Below are positions 8,102-23,390 of a stretch of 32,431 bases of DNA, one piece after another; within the stretch, counting starts at the first letter, position 1, and the number at the start of each line of letters is the position of its first letter. The translations under genes and the position numbers were made by a program. The DNA lies in contig JAAZAT010000042.1 of assembly GCA_012514185.1 (NCBI GenBank), positions 1-32,431 of the forward strand, given 5' to 3'. Below the pieces are notes generated by a model that saw only the letters and a list, made by a program, of their open reading frames with translations, did not search any database and was not told where the DNA came from. The DNA comes from Spirochaetales bacterium. GTDB lineage: Bacteria; Spirochaetota; Spirochaetia; Sphaerochaetales; Sphaerochaetaceae.

Positions 8102-9052
8102 TCAACTGCCCAGAAGCGGCTGGTCGTAGCTGAACAGAATCTCGTTGATGGCGAAAATGTCGTAGATGTGCTCGGTTAGGCAGTATTCAACGATTACATC
8201 GAACTTGCTGGCATGGGATAAGGAGTACCCTGCCAAGCCCAAAAGCCATTGTGTCTCCCCAAGACTCAACTCCAATGCAACGGCAAGGGCAAGAATAGTC
8301 TTCTTGCCCGGCGTATAGCCGTTGCCGCTTCGGATCTTTGAGAAGTGCTTGCGGTCGAGGTTTGCCTTCTTGTACACCTGAACCTCTGTTTTCTTCTTCT
8401 GCCGGATAAGCCTGAGCAGTGAGTCGCAAAAGGGTTCATCCAGTGAGTGCAGCATATCATCGAGCGAGGGCTGCGGGCTGTAGACACAACCGTCCATTGC
8501 GACATCGAACAGCTGATGCTCCACAGCAGGGTCGTACACCGTATCAAGGTAACGATCCACATGCTCCCGCAGCGAACGTTCCGGTTGCAGCATTTCGAAG
8601 AGAACCAAATGGACCTCCATCTCATGGCTTTCAAGGAAAGCTCTGATCTCCTCGACGGCAATCCTGAGCGCCTCTTCTTTCGGATAGCCGTAGATGCCGC
8701 TGCTGATCAGGGGGAATGCGATGCTTTTGCACCGGTATTGCGCGGCAAGGGCGAGACTGTTTGTGTAACAGGCGCGAAGCTGTGCCTCTTCGCCGCTCTT
8801 GCCGTCCCGGTAGACCGGACCTGCAGTATGGATGACATACTTCGACCTCAGGTTGAAGGCTGGAGTAAGAACCGCATCCCCTGTTTTGATCGGGGCAAGC
8901 GGGGCGCAGGCCCTCTCCATCTCTTCCATCCCGGCTGCCTTGAATAACGCACCGCACACCCCGCCTCCCATCTTCAGGGATGTGTTGGCGGCATTGACGA
9001 CGGCGTCGGTCGAAAGGGTGGTAATGTCACCTCTGATGAGAAAAAATGGCAT
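8102..9052 (-). CDS. Macro-domain ADP-ribose-binding protein with C-terminal HTH-like domain
   Basis: A 316-residue two-part protein. Residues 1-180 are a MacroD-like domain that binds ADP-ribose: GDITTLSTDAVVNAANTSL with Asn20 and Asn23, the GGG loop at 29-31, KYVIHTAGP, and PLISSGIYGYP. The position ten residues after Asn23, which is the catalytic Asp in MacroD hydrolases, is Cys33 here. The enzyme may therefore be a reader rather than a hydrolase, or use another mechanism. Residues about 230-290 (YKKANLDRKHFSKIRSGNGY, then TILALAVALELSLGETQWLL) look like an XRE-type helix-turn-helix, so it may link ADP-ribose sensing to DNA or RNA. It lies 2 bases after the PARG gene, clearly in one operon. 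Confidence 0.85.
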   Translation of the reverse strand: MPFFLIRGDITTLSTDAVVNAANTSLKMGGGVCGALFKAAGMEEMERACAPLAPIKTGDAVLTPAFNLRSKYVIHTAGPVYRDGKSGEEAQLRACYTNSLALAAQYRCKSIAFPLISSGIYGYPKEEALRIAVEEIRAFLESHEMEVHLVLFEMLQPERSLREHVDRYLDTVYDPAVEHQLFDVAMDGCVYSPQPSLDDMLHSLDEPFCDSLLRLIRQKKKTEVQVYKKANLDRKHFSKIRSGNGYTPGKKTILALAVALELSLGETQWLLGLAGYSLSHASKFDVIVEYCLTEHIYDIFAINEILFSYDQPLLGS

Positions 9053-9054
9053 GC

Positions 9055-9984
9055 TTATCGTCCTTGGCTGGGTTCAAACACCTGCTGAAACGGCTTGAAG
9101 TTCCCTTCAGGGTTGAACCACGTATAGGTGTTGTGATCATCGAGAATGGCAAATATGATGTGCTCAAAGGCACCTTGGTAGAGAGGCTCCCCAAGAACCT
9201 CCTTGAACAACAGTGCAATATGGTTGGGAGGGTTGGCAAAAGCGCCGCAACCAAAAGCCCCAAGCACAAGGTTTGTGTGGTGGTGGACAAGGGCGATATT
9301 GAACATGGTCCTGATTTTGCACTTGGTCGGCTCGATGAAAGAACCTTCAAGCCAGTAGCGGTCGTCATGGTCGCGCAGCAGGTTGGGTTCATGAATGGCA
9401 GCCACCGCCATGAAGGAGAGCTTCAGCGGCTCATCGAGCTTGGGATAGCCTTCCTGTTCGGCCCCTCGGAACACCGTTACCCCGGGAGAGTAGATGCCTC
9501 CATGGTTTCGATCCAGCGGATAGGACTCCGGCCGTCTGGGAACATCGAAGGAATGACCGATATCACTGAATTGGTAAAGCGACCGATAGTAGTTGGAAAT
9601 GCGGAAAAGGTACTCTTCCTGGGAACCCGCGCCGCTGAGCACTCCACCTCCCGGTTGGTGGCGGTTGGCCATGTTCAGCACGACCGGGTTCTCCAAAAGC
9701 CTTGCAGCCTTGATGGTATCGATCTGTTTCACCTCTACCAAGGTAGTGCGTTTCTCTTTGGGCTTGCTTGATGCAAGCTGTTGCTGGTAGAGGACCGATC
9801 CTTCAAGCAAGGGCGCTTCATCATCAAAGGTAATCTTTCTTCCCCCTTTTGATGTATAGAAGCCCTTGCGTACATCCCCGATGGTATCGAGAAACACATC
9901 CCGCCTGAGCGCATGCAACTTGTCAAAGTCCTGTTCGCGAGAAGCCCGTTCGAATTGCTCATGCCATCTTCCAGCGTCCCACAT
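9055..9984 (-). CDS. Bacterial-type poly(ADP-ribose) glycohydrolase (TIGR02452/PARG family)
   Basis: A 309-residue enzyme of the microbial PARG family. The catalytic signature is complete: GGG at 112-114, seven residues, then QEE at 122-124, in which Glu123/Glu124 supply the catalytic acid. An N-terminal region (RREV-like ALRRDVFLDTIGDVRKG) and the later LGAFGCGAFANPP phosphate-binding loop also match. It should release ADP-ribose from ADP-ribosylated protein or nucleic acid in the cytoplasm. It stands between the methyltransferase fusion gene (9 bases) and the macro-domain gene (2 bases). No ADP-ribosyltransferase is visible in this window, so the source of the modification is unknown. Confidence 0.87.
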   Translation of the reverse strand: MWDAGRWHEQFERASREQDFDKLHALRRDVFLDTIGDVRKGFYTSKGGRKITFDDEAPLLEGSVLYQQQLASSKPKEKRTTLVEVKQIDTIKAARLLENPVVLNMANRHQPGGGVLSGAGSQEEYLFRISNYYRSLYQFSDIGHSFDVPRRPESYPLDRNHGGIYSPGVTVFRGAEQEGYPKLDEPLKLSFMAVAAIHEPNLLRDHDDRYWLEGSFIEPTKCKIRTMFNIALVHHHTNLVLGAFGCGAFANPPNHIALLFKEVLGEPLYQGAFEHIIFAILDDHNTYTWFNPEGNFKPFQQVFEPSQGR

Positions 9985-12900: not shown

Positions 12901-15900
12901 ATGATTATTGATGTCTCAACTATCATCCCTGCAGTTGCGTTCGTCTTATATGTGTCATTTGTCATATTCGGGTTTCTCCAATACAAGAAAGATCGCTTCT
13001 ATTGGTCTTTCCAGCTCTACATGATTTTTGTGTCGATTTGGAGCTTCGGCTCGATGATGATGCACCTCAATAGTCCCATTCAGACTCCGCTGTTTTGGAA
13101 CCGCATCATGCTCATAGGCCTGCTGTCGGTTCCGTATGCACTGTGCAGCTTTGTGGTTGATATCCTGGAAATACAAAAACGCATGATCTTTGTGGTCATC
13201 AAGCTCAGCTATCTCTTGATTATCCCCTTGATGTACCTCAATTTTTCCGGCAACATCGTCAGCGATGCGGGATTCACCGCACAGGGAGAATTCTATTACC
13301 AGCTCGCCCCCGGGGCGCTGTCGGCGTATTCTTTGAGTTATGTCTATCTCATCTTCACCTTGGTCATGCTCCTGTTCGGGGCGAAACGACGTTCGAGCCA
13401 AGGCTTTCAAAAGAATCTGGTACTTCCTCTGATTGGTGTCGCGATCATGCTTGTCGGTATTTTCATGAACGTCTTTCCCGAGTTCGGCCGGTATCCCATC
13501 GATATTTTTGCAGCCACCATCAATGCTGTGCTTCTCTTCTATACCATCTACAAGTACAAGCTGATCAACTACTCACGCCTGGGGCTTTCCATCATCTACT
13601 CCACCATCCTGGCAATCGCCGCCTCGGTCGTGTACCTGTTGATCTTCTCGTTCATCCAACACAACAACTCCAACTTTGATCCAGGCAATATTTTCCAGCT
13701 CTCCTTCATCCTCGGTGTTGCAACGGTCCTGATCATTCATCCGCTGCGCAACCTGCTCTCCTATCTTGTCGACACCGTCATAATTCCCAAACGCCACCCG
13801 TATCAAACGACGATCAAGAACCTGAGCAAGCGGCTCACGACGATTGTCAATCTTCATGACCTGGGCAACGAAGTGGTCAAGAGCTTGAGTACGGGTCTGA
13901 AAACAGAGTGGGTTGTGTTTGTGGCAAAACGCTATGACGAGAGCCAAAAGTTTTTTTTGGTAGCCAACAACAACTGTCCATCCACCTGTAAAATCGGCCA
14001 GGAAATTGTTTTTACCTTTTCCAGTGAAGTCGAGCAGAAGCTGGAGCTGTACAAGAAGGAGAACCAAAGTTCGGTCATCAGTGTGACTCCTGACGAACAG
14101 CGCATAGAGGTCAGCAGTTCCCTGCCTCCGGCCGATGTGCTGATTCCCCTGGTTTTCCGCAAGCAGATCGCCGGCTACATTCTCATCGGCTACGATCACA
14201 CAAAGGCTTTGATCAGCGAAATAGAGCGCGAGGCGTTGGAAATACTGGCCGCCCAAAGCAGCCTTTCGCTTGAAAATGCACTTTCCTTTGAACAACTGCG
14301 CATCCAAGGTGATGAGTTGACTATGAGCAAGAACAAGCTCGAAGCCATTTTCAACGGCATCGCGTCGCCTGTATGCCTCATCGATATCGATTATACCATC
14401 CAGGAAGCCAATACTGCAGCGGTTAGCTTTTTCGGTCAGGATAGGGAAACGCTCATAGGCGGCAAGTGCTACCGTGCATTCTTCCACCGAAGCCGCCCCT
14501 GCCCGTTCTGCCAAGGGCTTGAATGCCTGCATACCGGGGTGCTGCAGGAAACCGAGGCCGATGTGGCCGAACAGGTATTCTCGTTCCAATTCCACTCGGT
14601 GCGTTCTCCTGACAAGAGCAAGAGCGTCTTCATTGAGATCATCAACGACATCACCGAGCAGAAGCACATGCAGGAGGAGCTGGTGCGGACCGAAAAAATG
14701 GCCGGCATCGGAACGCTTGCAGCAGGTATCGCCCATGAACTGAACAATCCGCTTGCAGGCATCGTGGGAACCGCAGAGATCATGCTCAGCGAGATGGATG
14801 AGCAGAGCCCGCATCATGAATATGTCCAGGATATTCTCACGTACTCAAAGACTGCCAGCGACGTCATCAAGGAGCTTTCCATCTACAGCCGCAAGGAAGA
14901 GGTGAAGCAGACCCAGCAGGTGGAGATTGTCAGGGTCTTGGAGTTCTCTTTGAGGCTTGCGCTTCGCGGTGTCGATTCCCAGAACATTCGTGTCGAGCGC
15001 AATTACCATGCACTTCCCTCCATCGAGGCCAATGAGGGTGAGCTTCAGCAGCTCTTCCTCAATCTCATCGTCAATGCCATCCAAGCGATGAACGGCAATG
15101 GTAAACTCACCCTCAGTTGCGTGGAGAAGGATGGCTTTGTCCAAGTGAAGGTCGGTGATACCGGCTGCGGGATTCCCGAAAAGCACATGAGCCAGATTTT
15201 CACCCCGTTCTTCACCACCAAGGCTCCTGGAAGCGGTACAGGTCTCGGGCTTTCCAACTGCTACAACATCGTAGAGAAGATGGGCGGGCGCATCAGGGTC
15301 AGGAGCGAGGAACAGGTGGGTTCGGAATTTACCACCATTTTCGCCCTCAACGAGGAGAACAAGGAGAACATCCGTTTCCAGCTCGTGAACGACCAGAACG
15401 GCATGAACGACGTGTTCTTCATCCAGCGTAAAGTGTTGGTGGGGGAGAAGGGCTATCTTGAGGAGTCAATCCATCGAAAGGTTGATGAGAAGGCGATGCA
15501 TATTCTTGCCTTTAGGGGCCTGCATCCGGTGGGGACAGTCTCGCTGATGACCAGCGAGCATTTCTGGCCGCTTCCGATCTCCAAATACTTCGATATCCAG
15601 AAAGTGCTCAAGACTCGCAAGGCGGCTGAGATCATCCGCCTGGCCGTGCTGCCCGAGATGCGCAACACCTCAGCGTCCATCGGCTTGATCATCCTGGTAT
15701 TCCTGCTTGCACGAGCAACCGGGGTGGAGGAGTTGATCATCGATGTGTTCGCCGACGATGAGAAGACGATCAAACTCTACAAGAAGTTCGGCTTCGTGGA
15801 AGTCGGCACCTACAACTCTCCTTCGGCTGTTACCGTGATGGTGCTGCAAAGCAAATCCACCCTTGAGAAGGATCGGAGCCAGCTCAGGCATTTTGTACGG

Positions 15901-16023
15901 CCTCTCTTTTCCCGACTCAGGGCGCTCTTTGATTTCGGTCCCTACACCCAGGCGGTCCATGACGAGATGGATCGCATCCTGAGCGTGGACAAGGATGAGG
16001 AGAGCGAGGTTCAAGTCATCTGA
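12901..16023 (+). CDS. Sensor histidine kinase (7TM-GAF-PAS-HisKA-HATPase) fused to FeeM-like acyltransferase domain
   Basis: A 1040-residue membrane sensor. Residues 5-290 hold about nine hydrophobic segments (a 7TM sensor module plus two). About 300-475 is GAF-like, 478-590 a PAS domain with Cys523, Cys534, Cys537 and Cys542. HisKA has phosphoacceptor His612 in HELNNP. The ATPase has the N box at 721-726, DTGCGIP at 753-759 and GTGLGLS ending at 785. Residues 823-985 are an extra GNAT-fold domain: a VGTVSLM strand, EIIRL with Glu910 and Arg913 (like the ExxR of LuxI/FeeM synthases), and LYKKFGF. GAGGA lies 5 bases before the ATG. The divergent HD-GYP regulator is the likely partner. Its end overlaps mscS by 13 bp. 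Confidence 0.88.
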
Positions 16024-17096
16024 GTGGATGCTTCGGCAGGAAGGATCCGCTGGGTCGGGTAGGCGAATTCAATTCCTTCTGCTCGGAAGCCTTCCACCAA
16101 CCTGAGATTGAACTCCTGTTGTACGTCCATGAAGGTGATGTAATCGGATGTCGGGATATAGTAGATGGTCTCAAAGACGAAAGCCGAGGCTCCGATGCTT
16201 TGGAAGTGCGACCTGTCGCAGACAACCCCTTCAACAACTTGAATTGATGCCAGTATGTCCTTGATGAGCTGTGGAATCCTTTTCAGCTTCTCCTCCGATG
16301 TATGGAAGGGGACCGAGATGGCAGAGACTACGCGCCTGCGTTGCATCTGCTTGTAATTGTGTATCCGGCTGGAGGTCAGATCGGAGTTGGAAATGATGAG
16401 CACCTCGCCGCTGAGGACCCTGATGCGGCTGCTCTTGATGCCGATCCGCTCGACTACACCCGACTTGTCCCCAAACACGATGAAGTCTCCGAGGGCGAAG
16501 GGATGGTCGAAGAAGATTACGAAGTAACTGAATAGGTCTCCCAGGATTCCCTGGGCGGCGATGGCAACGGCGATACCGCCGACTCCCAGTCCTGCAAGGG
16601 CTGTGGTGATGTTGAAGCCGAGGTTGCTGATCAAAATGAGAAAGCCGATTACCCACAACAACAATTTTACAAACGAGAGCAGCGGCTTGAGGTTCTTTTC
16701 ATGCTCGCGGTTGGCATACTCCTTCTCGAAATACTTGGAGAAACTCAGTTCAAGTGCTTTGTTGACCGAACGTACAATGATGATGGTCATGATCACCGCA
16801 AATACTATCTGAACTATTCGTTGTATGCCCTCCCCGAACGAGACGCTGTCGAGAAAGAGGGAGAGGGAGGCCAAAAAGAGCAGGGGGATGGCGATGCGCT
16901 TGATGAAGCGCAAGGCGGGCAGTGCGCGTGCCTTTGCATGTTTCTCATCCCTCATCTTGAGCTCTTCAAGTCCTTTGATGCGCTTGCCAAGGATTGCGTT
17001 TGCCGCAAGCAGCACCATCAAGGTGCCGAGGAGTATGAAGAAGGAGATCATATACTGCTCTTGGAAGGTTTGGAAAACGTGGGCGATGTTTGTCAT
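16011..17096 (-). CDS. Small-conductance mechanosensitive channel (MscS family)
   Basis: A 361-residue inner membrane channel that opens under membrane tension in osmotic downshock. Four to five hydrophobic segments precede the pore helix, seen as the Gly/Ala-rich ALAGLGVGGIAVAIAAQGIL, then the conserved LGDLFSYFVIFFDHPFALGDFI and the beta domain (GVVERIGIKSSRIRVLSGEVLIISN). It is slightly longer than E. coli MscS (286 residues) because of the extra N-terminal helices. No clear ribosome site precedes the ATG at 17096; an alternative start at 17051 would remove 15 residues. It lies 12 bases after the tocopherol-cyclase-like gene and may be co-transcribed with it. Confidence 0.9.
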   Translation of the reverse strand: MTNIAHVFQTFQEQYMISFFILLGTLMVLLAANAILGKRIKGLEELKMRDEKHAKARALPALRFIKRIAIPLLFLASLSLFLDSVSFGEGIQRIVQIVFAVIMTIIIVRSVNKALELSFSKYFEKEYANREHEKNLKPLLSFVKLLLWVIGFLILISNLGFNITTALAGLGVGGIAVAIAAQGILGDLFSYFVIFFDHPFALGDFIVFGDKSGVVERIGIKSSRIRVLSGEVLIISNSDLTSSRIHNYKQMQRRRVVSAISVPFHTSEEKLKRIPQLIKDILASIQVVEGVVCDRSHFQSIGASAFVFETIYYIPTSDYITFMDVQQEFNLRLVEGFRAEGIEFAYPTQRILPAEASTQMT

Positions 17097-18349: not shown

Positions 18350-19615
18350 ATGGGACAGTTCAATACTAACGAGCGTGTTATTATTGATGATGTCGAGCCT
18401 CCGCTCATACGGAGCGGTGCAGCCTCGGTTGCACCGGAACCTCAACACCAGAACGGCAGCCTTCATGAGTCGAGATTTCCTCTGGAAGGCAGAATCGAAG
18501 AGTTCAGGAAGCACTACTTCCCGGACGCGACCGATGCGATGTGGAATGACTGGCACTGGCAGCTTTTCCATCGGATCACCACCTATGCGGACCTTTGTCG
18601 GTTCCTCACTCCCACTCAAAGCGAACGTGAAGCCTTGGCGAGTGCAGACACCTTGTTCCCCTTCTCCGTAACCCCCTATTATCTCAGCTTCATCGATCCA
18701 GACGACCCGAACAGCGCAATTCGCAGGACCGTCATACCCTCCATTGAGGAGTCGTATGTTGGAAAAGGTGAGAGTGCAGATCCTTTGGCCGAGGAGCATA
18801 CCACCGCCGTACAGGGCTTGGTGCACCGCTACCCCGACCGTGTGCTTTTTTTGACCACCAGCTTTTGCAGCACGTATTGCAGGTACTGTACCCGTTCGCG
18901 CATGGTCGGAGGACATACCGAGGCCCTGCAAAAGCATTGGGAAGGTGCGTTGGAGTACATCAGAGAGCACTCGGAAGTGCGGGATGTGGTCATCAGCGGC
19001 GGCGATCCTCTTACTCTCTCCGATGAAATGCTTGATTACCTCCTCTCTGAGGTAACCGGCATCGAGCATGTAGAGATGGTACGCATCGGTACAAAGGTTC
19101 CGATGGTTATGCCCCAGCGGATCAATGAGAGCCTGCTTGCCGTTCTGCGCAAATACAAGCCGATTTACATGAGCATCCATGCCACCCATCCTGATGAGCT
19201 GACGAAGGAGGCGGCAAGAGCCTGCAATGCATTGGCTGATGCTGGTGTTGTTCTGGGCAGCCAGACCGTACTGCTCAAAGGTGTCAATGATTCGGTGCCT
19301 GTGCTGACCGATTTGTTTCACAAGCTGCTGCGGGTCAGGGTGAAACCCTACTACCTCTTTCAATGCGACCCCATTTCCGGTTCCGAACACTTTCGGACGA
19401 CGGTGGACAAGGGCAAGGCGTTGATGCAGGGACTGAGGGGATTTACCAGCGGCTACGCGATTCCCCAGTACGTCATTGACACTCCCGGAGGCGGCGGCAA
19501 GGTCCCTATCCTGCCTCAGTACGAAGTAGGACAGGATGATGAGCATCTGTACCTCAGAAATTATGAAGGAAAGGTGTTCTCCTATCCCACTGCAAGGGAG
19601 CATGCGTCGTGCTGA
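18350..19615 (+). CDS. kamA: Lysine 2,3-aminomutase (radical SAM, KamA)
   Basis: A 421-residue radical-SAM, PLP-dependent enzyme that should convert L-lysine to L-beta-lysine. The iron-sulfur motif is Cys173, Cys177 and Cys180 (CxxxCxxC). The lysine-binding acids are Asp340 and Asp377, and the PLP lysine is Lys384 in PGGGGK. Their spacings match Asp293, Asp330 and Lys337 of the clostridial enzyme exactly. Glutamate aminomutases lack this acid pair. The C-terminus stops soon after NYEGKVFSYP, so the zinc-binding Cys tail of clostridial KamA is absent, while the N-terminus is about 48 residues longer. The ATG at 18350 has AAGGA 9 bases upstream; 18293 is a poorer alternative start. It overlaps the first ligase gene by 7 bases. 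Confidence 0.88.
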   Translation: MGQFNTNERVIIDDVEPPLIRSGAASVAPEPQHQNGSLHESRFPLEGRIEEFRKHYFPDATDAMWNDWHWQLFHRITTYADLCRFLTPTQSEREALASADTLFPFSVTPYYLSFIDPDDPNSAIRRTVIPSIEESYVGKGESADPLAEEHTTAVQGLVHRYPDRVLFLTTSFCSTYCRYCTRSRMVGGHTEALQKHWEGALEYIREHSEVRDVVISGGDPLTLSDEMLDYLLSEVTGIEHVEMVRIGTKVPMVMPQRINESLLAVLRKYKPIYMSIHATHPDELTKEAARACNALADAGVVLGSQTVLLKGVNDSVPVLTDLFHKLLRVRVKPYYLFQCDPISGSEHFRTTVDKGKALMQGLRGFTSGYAIPQYVIDTPGGGGKVPILPQYEVGQDDEHLYLRNYEGKVFSYPTAREHASC

Positions 19616-20586
19616 TCGGAATGACTTATGATTTGAAGGACGATTACCTGAAAGAGGGGTACCCTCCTGAATTGGTTGCCGAGTGCGACAGCATTGTCAC
19701 CATCGATGCCATCGATGCGGCGTTGCAGAAACTTGGCCATGAGACGGTGCGGATCGGCAACGTGAAGGCCTTGGTGGGCTTTCTTGCTGCAGGGAAGAGC
19801 TGTGATTTGGTCTTCAACATCGCAGAGGGAATGCACGGCCTTTTGCGTGAGTCGGTGATTCCCGCCCTTCTGGATGCCTACCGGATTCCCTATGTCTTCA
19901 GTGATTCCTTTGTGCTGGCGATCTGCCTGCATAAAGGCTTTACCAAAGAGGTGGTCAGGAAGGCCAAAGTGGCTACTGCAGACTTTTGCCTGATCTCCCA
20001 TCCACAAGACTACAAGCAGGTTGATCTTCCGTATCCGCTCTTTCTCAAGCCTGTCGGCGGGGGGACCGGGATTGGGATTACTGCTTCCAACAAAGTCACC
20101 GACCGAGAACAGCTGAAGAACGTCTCTGAATCCTTGCTTGCGTCCTATGGGCAGCCGGTGTTGGTGGAGACCTTCCTCAGCGGCAGGGAGTTCACCGTCG
20201 GCATCACGGGAACAGGGGATGAGGCGGTGTGTACCGGGGTGATGGAAATCATCATCGACCACCACAGCGATGGAGGCATCTACTCCTACAAGACCAAACA
20301 GGAGTATGAAACAACCACACGCTATGAGAAGCCCGATTCGGCTGCATGGAAGGCATGCGAGAAAGTCGCCTTGACAGCCTGGCGTGCGCTCGGATGCCGG
20401 GACGGCGGAAGGATTGATGTGAAGATGGATGAGCAGGATGTGGTACACTTTTTGGAAGTGAACCCGCTTGCAGGCTTGCATCCCATCGACTCCGACCTAC
20501 CCATCCTCAGCCGGATGCACGGGCTGTCTTATGATGATCTCATCGGGCGGATTGTGCATTCTGCGCAAAAGAGGCTTGGCTTATGA
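19609..20586 (+). CDS. ATP-grasp ligase 1 (D-Ala-D-Ala ligase family)
   Basis: A 325-residue amino acid or peptide ligase that would activate a carboxylate with ATP and join it to an amine. It has the ATP-grasp lysine and glycine loop (LFLKPVGGGTGIGITASN), GREFTVGITG, and the metal-binding acidic end GGRIDVKM...FLEVNPLAGLHPIDSDLPI, close to the ENxxPG end of Ddl. The HGxxGEDG substrate loop of true D-Ala-D-Ala ligases is replaced by NIAEGMHGLLRESVIP, so peptidoglycan synthesis is doubtful. It starts with GTG inside the end of kamA (GGGAG 8 bases upstream) and overlaps the next gene by 4 bases. Beta-lysine is an obvious candidate substrate, by inference only. Confidence 0.85.
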   Translation: MLIGMTYDLKDDYLKEGYPPELVAECDSIVTIDAIDAALQKLGHETVRIGNVKALVGFLAAGKSCDLVFNIAEGMHGLLRESVIPALLDAYRIPYVFSDSFVLAICLHKGFTKEVVRKAKVATADFCLISHPQDYKQVDLPYPLFLKPVGGGTGIGITASNKVTDREQLKNVSESLLASYGQPVLVETFLSGREFTVGITGTGDEAVCTGVMEIIIDHHSDGGIYSYKTKQEYETTTRYEKPDSAAWKACEKVALTAWRALGCRDGGRIDVKMDEQDVVHFLEVNPLAGLHPIDSDLPILSRMHGLSYDDLIGRIVHSAQKRLGL

Positions 20587-21524
20587 AGGTTTTGATTCTC
20601 ACCGATGCCCGAAAAAGCGGTATGCGTGAGGATGAGGTGGATACCCTGGCACAGGTCAAGGCGGTAAAGAAAGCGTTGCAGCTCCTTGGCCATACAGTCA
20701 TGGTGGAAGCCTTCTCCTTGAACCTGATCCTTACCGCCCGCCGCATTGAGAAGTCAGGATGCGACTTCGTGTTCAATCTGGTGGAGAATCTCAGTTCCAG
20801 CCGTCTTTTGCATCTGGTTCCCCTGTTGTGCCAGTCCCTCTCTATTCCCTGCAGCGGGGGTGGTGCCTATACGCTTTCGATAACCGGAGACAAGGTGGTT
20901 GCCAAAAGACAGCTCGATCTTGCCGGCCTTCCGACTCCCCCTTGGCTTGAGGATGGCTGTGATGGTTCACGCTTTCTTGGTGTCCCCGTGATGGTTAAGC
21001 CCATCGCACAGGAGGCTTCGGTGGGGATCGGTGATGCTTCGGTGAGAACCTTTACGGATACCGATGAGCTCACAGCGTATCTGCGGGAGCACCCCGATTA
21101 TTTTGCAGAACGCTATATCGACGGCAGGGAGTTCAATCTCTCTGTGCTTCCGGGAGGCAGGGTGCTTCCGGTCTGTGAGATGTGCTTTGTTGACTATCCT
21201 GCGGATAAGGTGAAAATTGTAGGGTATGAGGCAAAGTGGCAGGAGCAATCATTCGCCTATCAGCATACCCAGCGCTCCTATACCTTCGGCAGAGAAGAGC
21301 AGGGTTTGATTGAAGAGTTGAAACGGCTAGCCCAAGCTGTGTATGTGCTGTTTGGAAACAGTGGGTATGCACGCGTTGATGTGCGTGTCGACCAACAGAA
21401 CAAGCCGTTCATCCTGGAGATGAACAGCAATCCTTGCATAGCAGCCGACAGCGGTTTCATCGCAGCTGCTTTGCAAGCAGGCATGACCTATTGCGAGGTC
21501 ATTGAGCACTTGCTCAGGAGATAG
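20583..21524 (+). CDS. ATP-grasp ligase 2 (D-Ala-D-Ala ligase-like)
   Basis: A 313-residue ATP-grasp enzyme, shorter in the middle than ligase 1. Visible elements are DFVFNLVENL, DKVVAKRQLDLAGLPTP, the ATP-binding VMVKPIAQEASVG, FAERYIDGREFNLSVL, and GYARVDVRVD...FILEMNSNPC for metal binding. It is more similar to the convergent ligase 3 than to ligase 1: FAERYIDGREF is shared exactly and the YEAKWQEQSF/YDAKWTEQTF segments align. It starts in the ATGA overlap with ligase 1, so the two are coupled and probably act in sequence on one product. The substrates cannot be read directly. Confidence 0.84.
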   Translation: MKVLILTDARKSGMREDEVDTLAQVKAVKKALQLLGHTVMVEAFSLNLILTARRIEKSGCDFVFNLVENLSSSRLLHLVPLLCQSLSIPCSGGGAYTLSITGDKVVAKRQLDLAGLPTPPWLEDGCDGSRFLGVPVMVKPIAQEASVGIGDASVRTFTDTDELTAYLREHPDYFAERYIDGREFNLSVLPGGRVLPVCEMCFVDYPADKVKIVGYEAKWQEQSFAYQHTQRSYTFGREEQGLIEELKRLAQAVYVLFGNSGYARVDVRVDQQNKPFILEMNSNPCIAADSGFIAAALQAGMTYCEVIEHLLRR

Positions 21525-21527
21525 TGG

Positions 21528-22001
21528 ATGCAATTTCGCGAACAACCAATATATGAGGATATGGAGGCTGTTGCTTCCATTTTGAAGCGCTCAGGCTTCT
21601 TCAACGAGGAAGAGCAGGAGGTCGGTGTATCGCTGGTGCGTGAAAGGCTCGAGCAGGGGGAGAAGAGCCTCTACTTCTTCCAGTTCGCCCAAGAGGGTGA
21701 GCAGGTGCTCGGATATACCTGTTTCGGACCTATCCCGGGAACACGATTCAGCTATGACCTCTACTGGATCGCTGTTGACCTGGCGTATCAGAGACAAGGT
21801 ATCGGGGGGCTGCTCTTACAGCAGACCGAGGCGGAAATTGAACGCAGGGGCGGCAAACGGATCTACATCGAGACCTCCTCACAACCCCTCTACATTCCCA
21901 CCCGCAGCTTCTATACCCGTCATGGCTACATCCTGGAAGGGCAACTGAAAGATTATTATGCCCCCGGTGATGACAAGCTGCTCTACGTCAAAGGATGGTA
22001 A
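21528..22001 (+). CDS. GNAT-family N-acetyltransferase 1
   Basis: A 157-residue GNAT protein. The acetyl-CoA loop is RQGIGG at 89-94, preceded by strand 4 (YDLYWIAVDLAYQRQ) and followed by FYTRHGYILEG, the usual C-terminal motif B. It should acetylate an amine, plausibly on a product of the upstream ligases or aminomutase. The length is that of a single-domain GNAT and well below the two-domain beta-lysine acetyltransferase AblB (about 270 residues), so it is not a direct AblB match. The CAGGAG ribosome site is inside the end of ligase 2, with a 3-base gap between the genes. Confidence 0.82.
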   Translation: MQFREQPIYEDMEAVASILKRSGFFNEEEQEVGVSLVRERLEQGEKSLYFFQFAQEGEQVLGYTCFGPIPGTRFSYDLYWIAVDLAYQRQGIGGLLLQQTEAEIERRGGKRIYIETSSQPLYIPTRSFYTRHGYILEGQLKDYYAPGDDKLLYVKGW

Positions 22002-22004
22002 GAC

Positions 22005-22463
22005 ATGGACATCCAAATTCAGAGCTTTCAACACACCTCTGATATCAATGATATCGAAGGGGTGCGCAGCCTTGTGAAACAGCAACTGACATTCATCGGA
22101 TATGAGCCGGATCAGCAGGCCATTGAAAGCGTCCTATCCAATGCCATGAAAGAGGAGAGTCGTGCGGTGCTCTGGGTGGCCTACCAACAGGACCGGGCGG
22201 TCGGCATGGCATTCGGCAATGTCTGCTGTGGTTTGGAGAGCGGCGGTGACTACCTGTGGCTCAACGAGCTCTATGTTGCAGAAGAGGCACGCTATCATGG
22301 TTTGGGAACGAAGCTGTTGGCCGAGGTCCAACGGTGGGCGAAGGAGATGGGTTGCACCTACCTTGCAATGGTGACCCATCCAAAGAACGAGCGGGCACAG
22401 AACCTCTATCGAACTGAAGGGTTTGAGCTTGAGAGCTTGGTCTGGGTGGACAAGTATTTATAA
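22005..22463 (+). CDS. GNAT-family N-acetyltransferase 2
   Basis: A 152-residue GNAT protein, different in sequence from the preceding one. The acetyl-CoA loop is RYHGLG at 96-101, after LWLNELYVAEEA, and motif B is AQNLYRTEGFELES. It has the layout of small aminoglycoside- or amino acid-acetylating GNATs. It follows the first GNAT gene by 3 bases and closes the kamA operon. Its last 6 bases overlap the end of the convergent ligase 3 gene. A role in tailoring, or in self-protection by acetylating the product of the cluster, is inferred from position only. Confidence 0.82.
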   Translation: MDIQIQSFQHTSDINDIEGVRSLVKQQLTFIGYEPDQQAIESVLSNAMKEESRAVLWVAYQQDRAVGMAFGNVCCGLESGGDYLWLNELYVAEEARYHGLGTKLLAEVQRWAKEMGCTYLAMVTHPKNERAQNLYRTEGFELESLVWVDKYL

Positions 22464-23390
22464 AATACCGGCTTGGTTAACCAGTGATACGATGATGTCT
22501 TCGAAGCTGAAACCCCACTCTTTGGCCAGGTGGTAGAATCCGTAGAAGCTCGGGTTTGCATTCAATTCCAGAATGAATGGCTTGTTGTTCCCATCGATTC
22601 TGAAGTCGGCTCGTGCATAGCCGTTGAGGTCGAAGGCCTTCCAGCACGCGCCGGCAAGTACTTCCAACTGATGGATAAGGGGCTTGTCCGCTTCGTCGTG
22701 GGTATACTTTGCACTGATGTGCTCATACCCGAAGGTTTGCTCGGTCCACTTGGCATCATAGGTTATGATTCTGGCCCGCTCTCCATAGTCGTTGAATACC
22801 CACTCATACGGCGGGAGGATGTGCACATCCTTCTTCGTGCCATACATGCAGACAGTGAACTCCCTGCCGTCGATGTACCGCTCGGCGAAGCAGGGACAAT
22901 GCAGCTGCTCCTCCTTCTCTTGCAAGAGTGCCTCTACCTCTTCGTGCTCGACCAGGCAGCGTTCATCAAGACCTACCGATGCGTCCTGGGCCGTGGGTTT
23001 GATGAGGTACAGCCCTTTCTCGCTCTCCTTGCTGTACAAGGCGGGAGTCGGCAGCTGATGGTCTGCCATCAACTTCTTGGCCAGGACCTTGTTGGTGGTT
23101 ACAAAGAGATTTGCCAGCGAGCAGCCGGTATATTTCAGGTTAAGGCTTTCAAGAATGCCTGGGACCAGATAGGAGAGCATCTCCTCCCCGGGTGCCGAGT
23201 CTACGAGATTGAAGACTACGACGTTTTTGTCCAGCTTTTCGAGTTCCGCAAGCGAGTAGGGAAGCAGTCTTGCAGAGAACCCTTTTTGGGTAAGAATTTC
23301 TTCAATCCATTGGGCTTGACGGAGAATGTCCAATACGTCCTCTGGGGCGTCTGAAGGGATCTGGTTGTGAAGGATGATGATCTGTTGCAT
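22458..23390 (-). CDS. ATP-grasp ligase 3 (convergent paralogue of ligase 2)
   Basis: A 310-residue ATP-grasp ligase on the opposite strand, aimed at the kamA operon. Elements: VVVFNLVDSAPGEE, NKVLAKKLMADHQLPTP, YLIKPTAQDASVG (ATP-binding), FAERYIDGREFTV, and GYARADFRID...FILELNANPSFYG. These match ligase 2 closely, so the two probably arose by duplication and differ in substrate. The ribosome site AAGGAA (23412-23407) is separated from the ATG by a 6-bp perfect hairpin (23392-23406), unlike the direct spacing seen for neighbouring genes. It is likely expressed separately from the kamA operon but serves the same pathway. Confidence 0.84.
   Translation of the reverse strand: MQQIIILHNQIPSDAPEDVLDILRQAQWIEEILTQKGFSARLLPYSLAELEKLDKNVVVFNLVDSAPGEEMLSYLVPGILESLNLKYTGCSLANLFVTTNKVLAKKLMADHQLPTPALYSKESEKGLYLIKPTAQDASVGLDERCLVEHEEVEALLQEKEEQLHCPCFAERYIDGREFTVCMYGTKKDVHILPPYEWVFNDYGERARIITYDAKWTEQTFGYEHISAKYTHDEADKPLIHQLEVLAGACWKAFDLNGYARADFRIDGNNKPFILELNANPSFYGFYHLAKEWGFSFEDIIVSLVNQAGIL

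Follow-up and report, generated by a model that had tools for sequence, protein, structure and literature searches.

What could a bacterium make with a lysine aminomutase-like enzyme, three ATP-grasp ligases and two GNAT acetyltransferases encoded side by side? This question is raised by a locus in the genome of a Spirochaetales bacterium of the Sphaerochaetaceae (contig JAAZAT010000042.1 of assembly GCA_012514185.1), of which a stretch of 32,431 nucleotides, hereafter the window, was analysed. Our answer is that the kamA gene and its neighbours form a modular block, whose core recurs in distant phyla, and that this operon may build a small N-acetylated peptide containing beta-lysine, likely an intracellular solute or store. 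We give this reading as a whole somewhat less than an even chance. Loci and genomes are cited below by our own numbers (L and G, respectively).

Organization of the block

On the plus strand the window carries kamA (18350..19615), encoding a radical SAM/PLP aminomutase, followed by ligase 1 (19609..20586), the usual partner of kamA, ligase 2 (20583..21524), the partner of GNAT1, and the acetyltransferase genes GNAT1 (21528..22001) and GNAT2 (22005..22463); ligase 3 (22458..23390) lies on the minus strand and converges on GNAT2. The spacings of -7, -4, +3 and +3 bases between kamA and GNAT2 reported in the initial annotation are exact by the gene coordinates, and so is the 6-bp overlap of ligase 3 with GNAT2. 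Its family assignments (KamA/radical SAM, three Dala_Dala_lig_C ATP-grasp proteins and two GNATs) are also those of Pfam and NCBIfam. KamA comprises 421 amino acids counted from the ATG at 18350, a start that aligns with its relatives. The adjacency of the six genes is real, but they do not make up one unit: the first four are core genes, while ligase 3 and GNAT2 belong to a separable accessory cassette.

Conservation and modularity

The set of relatives comprised 100 genomes, the window's own genome counted; they were searched with ligase 2 and the matching stretches were then fetched. Ligase 2 matched 56 of the 100, many of these being weak matches to general ligases, and kamA and ligase 1 occur together in 29 (28 others and the window). 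The gene order for which the initial annotation had suggested a search is conserved, with the kamA-ligase 1 block found in these 29 of 100 relatives and in other phyla. The series kamA-ligase 1-ligase 2 is uninterrupted in 22 of the 28 other genomes. The other six comprise a locus with the order ligase 1-ligase 2-GNAT1-kamA, in which kamA stands last in the same block (L058), one in which the block is broken off by the contig end (L070), and four with kamA and ligase 1 but no adjoining ligase 2 (L071-L074). Two of the latter four genomes (G092 and G073) hold a ligase-GNAT1 pair on a separate contig (L057, L061), the ligase of L061 having ligase 3 as its best match, and a third (G068) encodes elsewhere a ligase 2-like protein fused to a GNAT domain (L067).

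Every one of the 16 loci with both GNAT2 and ligase 3 has them tail to tail, and this cassette abuts the core in 10. In five draft genomes it lies on another contig than the core (L060 in G029, L063 in G054, L064 in G039, L065 in G041 and L066 in G056), and in L062 it is cut by the end of the contig. Among the loci examined, which for other phyla were loci and not whole genomes, the cassette is confined to the window's family. We read the block as three cassettes, kamA with ligase 1, ligase 2 with GNAT1, and ligase 3 with GNAT2; it is a modular block, with a widespread core of kamA-ligase 1-ligase 2-GNAT1 and a family-limited addition.

A single-protein scan of species genomes with ligase 2 gave no confirmed locus. 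Scanning with an alignment of ligase 1 returned at least 580 stretches, at least 564 of which encode relatives, and the best 80 loci were analysed. They come from Bacteroidales, Deltaproteobacteria, Acidobacteria, Planctomycetota, Aminicenantes, Neomarinimicrobiota, Sumerlaeota, WOR-3, Gammaproteobacteria and others, mostly as metagenome bins; a named strain, Prolixibacter denitrificans DSM 27267 (L109), has the complete core. In these 80 loci kamA is present in 71, in 66 of them immediately before ligase 1 and on its strand; ligase 2 comes immediately after ligase 1 in 65, and GNAT1 is found in 58. Five of the 80 (L076-L079 and L138), judged by their length, are contigs already among the relatives; without these duplicates the counts out of 75 are 66, 61, 61 and 54, respectively. 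A chance grouping of the genes is excluded, because the same order recurs in distant phyla.

The partners are also found fused to one another: ligase 1 and ligase 2 in a single frame (L200, L201, and L112 with two ATP-grasp stretches in one frame), ligase 2 with GNAT (L118, L134), GNAT1 with a histone deacetylase (HDAC)-type protein (L145), and GNAT1 with an arginase-family hydrolase (L096, 12653-14146), where the operon also encodes an HDAC-type protein. Such fusions speak for joint action of the partners, but not for any particular product.

In an even sample of 118 genomes of the L124 phylum, 33 have a ligase 2 match (E up to 1e-70); for the L109 phylum the count is 15 of 118, and for the window's own phylum 21 of 198 (E up to 1e-60). 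Because some matches are lone ligases, these counts are upper limits for the operon. From the 48 matching genomes of the former two phyla 20 loci were fetched, with strong and weak matches chosen on purpose, and from the 21 of the window's phylum 9. The kamA gene is in view in 14 of these 20 loci (11 of 15 from the phylum of L124 and 3 of 5 from that of L109) and in 6 of the 9. Ligase 2 stands alone in L183, L184, L207 and L208, and the fetched stretches of L191, L192, L193, L196 and L206 have no kamA; apart from L196 and L206 (E 1e-104 and 1e-105), every case lacking kamA matched with E above 1e-80. If the core operon is judged by ligase 2, a metabolite without a name may be frequent among anaerobes and sediment bacteria.

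Enzymes encoded by the block

KamA is a KamA family radical SAM protein (TIGR00238, 331.4 bits against a cut-off of 199.2). The radical SAM cysteines Cys173, 177 and 180 are kept in 91 of 91 rows of our alignment of cluster KamAs, which includes five duplicate contigs. The residues singled out in the initial annotation, Asp340, Asp377 and Lys384, are likewise kept in all 91 and align with the Clostridium subterminale enzyme (2A5H); by their roles in that structure, we take the two Asp residues to hold the side chain of lysine and Lys384 to bind PLP. All three residues are shared by the full set of 107 KamA rows compared and thus do not set this group apart. Judged by its sequence, the cluster KamA is a separate subfamily next to AblA, with the putative lysine-binding acids retained.

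Ligases 1, 2 and 3 are ATP-grasp, Ddl-fold carboxylate-amine ligases by fold and metal-binding residues. The initial annotation had named D-alanine--D-alanine ligase identity as a possible refutation, and the check left its proposal standing: all three proteins differ from the genome's own Ddl, which lies on a different contig. The latter passes the NF002528 cut-off of 262 with 275.3 bits, and ligases 1, 2 and 3 miss it with 103.4, 55.6 and 49.7 bits, respectively. Two other models are poor yardsticks, as the own Ddl misses them as well (TIGR01205, 238.2 against 245.65; NF002378, 189.5 against 243). In an alignment to the own Ddl, its acceptor-site motif NTSPGMT is altered in all three window ligases, which have NPLAGLHPIDSDLP (ligase 1), NSNPCIAADSGF (ligase 2) and NANPSFYGFYH (ligase 3) instead. 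With a Ddl encoded elsewhere, scores under the Ddl cut-off and a changed acceptor motif, we reject them as the Ddl of the cell.

GNAT1 is close to PDB 2r7h over 152 residues (E 2.7e-34 with the single sequence and 1.1e-54 with a profile), and we regard this protein, labelled by its depositors a "putative D-alanine N-acetyltransferase of GNAT family", as a near relative; a literature search for 2r7h found no paper.

Proposed pathway

We infer the substrates, the order of the steps, the product and the role from the gene content, gene order, fusions, phyletic links, folds and catalytic residues. KamA would convert L-lysine to beta-lysine. Ligase 1 would use ATP to form the acyl phosphate of one amino acid and couple this to a second amino acid through its amine, with beta-lysine as one of the pair, and ligase 2 would add a further residue. 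GNAT1 would acetylate a free amine, most likely that of the side chain, yielding a small net-neutral peptide. In the window's family, ligase 3 and GNAT2 could extend the product and cap it again; in several other lineages, the HDAC-type protein may remove acetyl groups and recover the peptide. The product would then serve as an intracellular solute or nitrogen store, a counterpart in other chemical form of N-epsilon-acetyl-beta-lysine, which KamA and AblB make. An acetylated beta-lysine di- or tripeptide is our best reading of the product. That it is a beta-lysine peptide at all we consider fairly probable; a role as osmolyte or store is proposed more tentatively. From the scheme of the initial annotation, in which lysine becomes beta-lysine, ligases join it to amino acids and GNATs acetylate the product, the joint action of the enzymes stands, inferred from conserved order, fusions and the co-occurring deacetylase, but its substrates, product and osmotic role must be held more loosely.

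The acetyl group is placed on an aliphatic amine mainly because of the HDAC-type protein. HDAC-fold enzymes take acetyl groups off lysine side chains and polyamines. A protein with the histone-deacetylase domain (PF00850) is encoded within the operon in 11 of the 80 loci (the domain was checked in L105, L058 and L059), and its N-terminal part gives a weak GNAT score in L105 and L058 and none in L059. All 11 proteins have the motifs GHHAE, DxDYHHGNG and EGGY, and a deacetylase with intact motifs in the operon fits an N-acetylated product. Full-length orthologues occur in 5 of the 100 relatives (G042, G057, G084, G089 and G092), all five with the cluster; shorter matches of 55-57% identity are found in G060, which lacks the core, and in G073, which has it. 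The window's genome gave no HDAC-type match at E 0.001.

Two class relatives encode a 718-residue protein with a ligase-1-like ATP-grasp domain, whose gene overlaps an HDAC-like gene (L235, 5723-7879; L236, 5757-7913). The remainder of this protein is a family S58 peptidase, as seen in L035 (301-2457), the same gene as that of L235; family S58 includes beta-aminopeptidases. The 12-kb stretches around L235 and L236 contain no kamA. We suspect a sister system here, in which acetylated peptides are both made and broken down. Elsewhere, a Ddl-like ATP-grasp ligase is fused to a methyltransferase (L036, 313-2451; L237, 2194-4332).

Evidence against the peptide and alternative explanations

Several observations, among them the transporter genes considered below, weigh against an intracellular acetylated beta-lysine peptide. 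The window KamA does not reach the AblA equivalog (TIGR03820, 435.5 bits against 525.4), and its score with the glutamate aminomutase model (423.3 bits, cut-off 650) is only 12 bits lower. The lysine-binding Asp pair gives no proof of a lysine substrate, because it is carried by all 107 KamAs compared, including a paralogue without known function; residue 249 is Lys in 91 of 91 cluster rows and Arg in 16 of 16 other KamAs compared. Ligase 1 occurs without kamA in view in 9 of the 80 loci: in three it is alone, with none of the other cluster genes (L088, L141, L154), and the six others, some at contig ends, include L081 with a short kamA-like frame only. Conversely, L189, L190 and L203 have kamA beside ligase 2 and no recognised ligase 1. 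Finally, the HDAC part of G060, the genome without the core, is a close one (55% identical, with the N-terminal part missing).

In our ranking, a solute or store comes before export, and export before the cell wall. An exported acetylated peptide, i.e. a signal or an antibiotic-like amide leaving through neighbouring MATE transporters, is an unlikely explanation. MATE-like genes are found tail to tail with GNAT1 in six loci of the family (confirmed as MatE in L049 and L053) and upstream of ligase 3 in three loci (L047 and L062 among them), and an MFS protein follows ligase 1 in L074. However, the MATE genes are on the opposite strand or apart from the core genes, and none adjoins the window's block; the same-strand abutting neighbours in the 80 loci (9 upstream and 12 downstream) include no recurring transporter type. 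In one sampled phylum up to a quarter of the genomes may have the operon, which also suits basic physiology better than a strain-specific antibiotic.

Ranked next, and likewise improbable, is that the aminomutase acts on ornithine, arginine, glutamate or acylated lysine, and that the peptide contains another beta-amino acid. In its favour are the position of KamA in a separate clade under all equivalog cut-offs (AblA, glutamate and arginine, the last with 357.2 bits against 600) and the fusion of GNAT1 with an arginase-family protein in L096. Four other cluster KamAs are likewise below all equivalog cut-offs, with 467-499 bits for TIGR03820. Nevertheless, AblA is the top-scoring equivalog for the window KamA and for these four, and both side-chain-binding Asp residues are invariant in the 91 rows, whereas glutamate aminomutase is not known to have this Asp pair.

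A cell-wall or surface peptide, in which beta-lysine would modify the cross-bridge or stem, is less credible still. The ligases share the Ddl fold, a FemAB-like gene adjoins the ligase 3/GNAT2 cassette in four loci (L060, L064, L065 and L066, Pfam-confirmed in all but L065), and a Mur ligase lies downstream in one (L128). On the other hand, FemAB was seen in no other locus, the genome has a separate Ddl whose acceptor motif the window ligases do not keep, and an acetyl cap together with a deacetylase favours a free small molecule.

Modification of a protein, e.g. beta-lysylation of EF-P, with no free metabolite is very improbable: KamA-family enzymes (EpmB) serve EF-P in other bacteria, but the window KamA scores 264.8 bits against the EpmB cut-off of 369.3 (TIGR03821), on which we reject that role, the block is without an aminoacyl-tRNA-synthetase-like gene, and the ligases and GNATs are small, single-domain proteins.

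Relation to AblB and a possible osmotic role

In the window's own genome, a draft that is 85.9% complete, the best match to AblB (TIGR03827) scores 20.8 bits against 205.1 and lies on another contig. Among 26 genomes of the genus, the cluster is present in 14 and a true AblB in 11; three have both and four neither, and these seven also tell against a simple exchange. Each of the 16 genomes with a completeness of 90% or more carries one or the other, and the alternation gives a Fisher value of 0.003 for these 16, which is pseudo-replicated; the completeness limit was picked after viewing the table, and 90% or 92% selects the same 16. For the whole genus the association has p = 0.045. A tree of a single marker protein from 26 genomes (24 from the genus) unites the eight AblB-only genomes in one clade and has three changes of the cluster label; the statistics are inflated because the AblB-only genomes form one clade. 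Over the 100 relatives there is no association (p = 1.0). With an alternation that amounts to about one clade switch, we reject the view that the cluster is a strong functional replacement for AblB. The sample of 118 genomes from the L124 phylum has AblB in 3, and in none of the 33 with ligase 2, where about 0.8 would be expected, which is uninformative. In G015, which holds both the cluster and AblB, an in-frame stop divides ablA into two frames (L165, 4691-6022).

The initial annotation also pointed to mechanosensitive channel and membrane-lipid-like genes nearby as a reason to consider an osmotic role. An MscS-type mechanosensitive channel (16011..17096, minus strand) and a divergent gene for a tocopherol-cyclase-like protein (PF14249; 17109..18287, minus strand) are indeed present, also in close relatives. 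These neighbours say little on the wider pathway, because among the fetched genomes just six others, each belonging to the window's genus, have them beside the cluster. No osmotic gene was seen to recur in the flanks outside that genus. As the alternation with AblB is mostly one clade switch, an osmotic role is weakly supported. A study of biogas reactors (PMC10785759) describes opu transporters from two bins of Sphaerochaeta, which we guess to be the window's genus, and ablB from other organisms.

Comparison with known systems

The closest parallel in theme is the AblA/AblB pathway for N-epsilon-acetyl-beta-lysine of methanogens and some bacteria, in which a KamA-family aminomutase stands beside an acetyltransferase; AblB itself is found in genomes of the window's genus, where two AblA proteins score 751 and 760 bits with TIGR03820. 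In contrast, the cluster KamA is a separate clade under the AblA cut-off, and the cluster has a different, short GNAT in place of AblB and two or three ATP-grasp ligases in addition. N-acetylglutaminylglutamine synthetase (TIGR03103), whose product is an osmolyte, resembles the block in coupling an ATP-grasp amide ligase to a GNAT; however, the window proteins are under its cut-off (569 bits; GNAT2 has 18), TIGR03103 is absent among the matches listed for the window ligases (25 of 37 for ligase 1 and 25 of 28 for ligase 2), and the cluster contains KamA. With the Ddl superfamily the ligases share the fold and the ATP- and metal-binding residues, but they differ from it in their scores far under the cut-off, altered acceptor motif and gene context.

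The enzyme families and the beta-lysine theme are known, and we found no description of their combination or likely product. A literature search, with thin coverage of subscription journals, found no paper on a KamA/ATP-grasp operon. Iyer et al. are said to have surveyed such gene neighbourhoods in 2009 (Mol BioSyst, on ATP-grasp amidoligases) and could mention the operon. If the product is an osmolyte, it escapes predictions of salt tolerance that use only AblB, ectoine or betaine genes; as a store or signal, it would represent new beta-peptide chemistry. It is tempting, though doubtful, to see here a phylum-spanning class of non-ribosomal beta-peptide solutes, in which ligase-plus-GNAT cassettes would make N-acetylated beta-lysyl di-, tri- or tetrapeptides, uncapped by HDAC-fold enzymes in some lineages and replacing N-epsilon-acetyl-beta-lysine in many anaerobic and sediment bacteria.

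Other genes in the window

The window also encodes on the plus strand (12901-16023) a histidine kinase (7TM, PAS, HisKA and HATPase) with a C-terminal GNAT/FeeM-like N-acyl amino acid synthase domain. Close relatives keep this gene near the cluster, and the joining of an acyltransferase to a sensor kinase is unusual. Farther away on the minus strand, a macro domain protein adjoins a microbial PARG-type protein (8102-9052 and 9055-9984; PF01661 and PF10021), and the two are probably an ADP-ribose removal pair.

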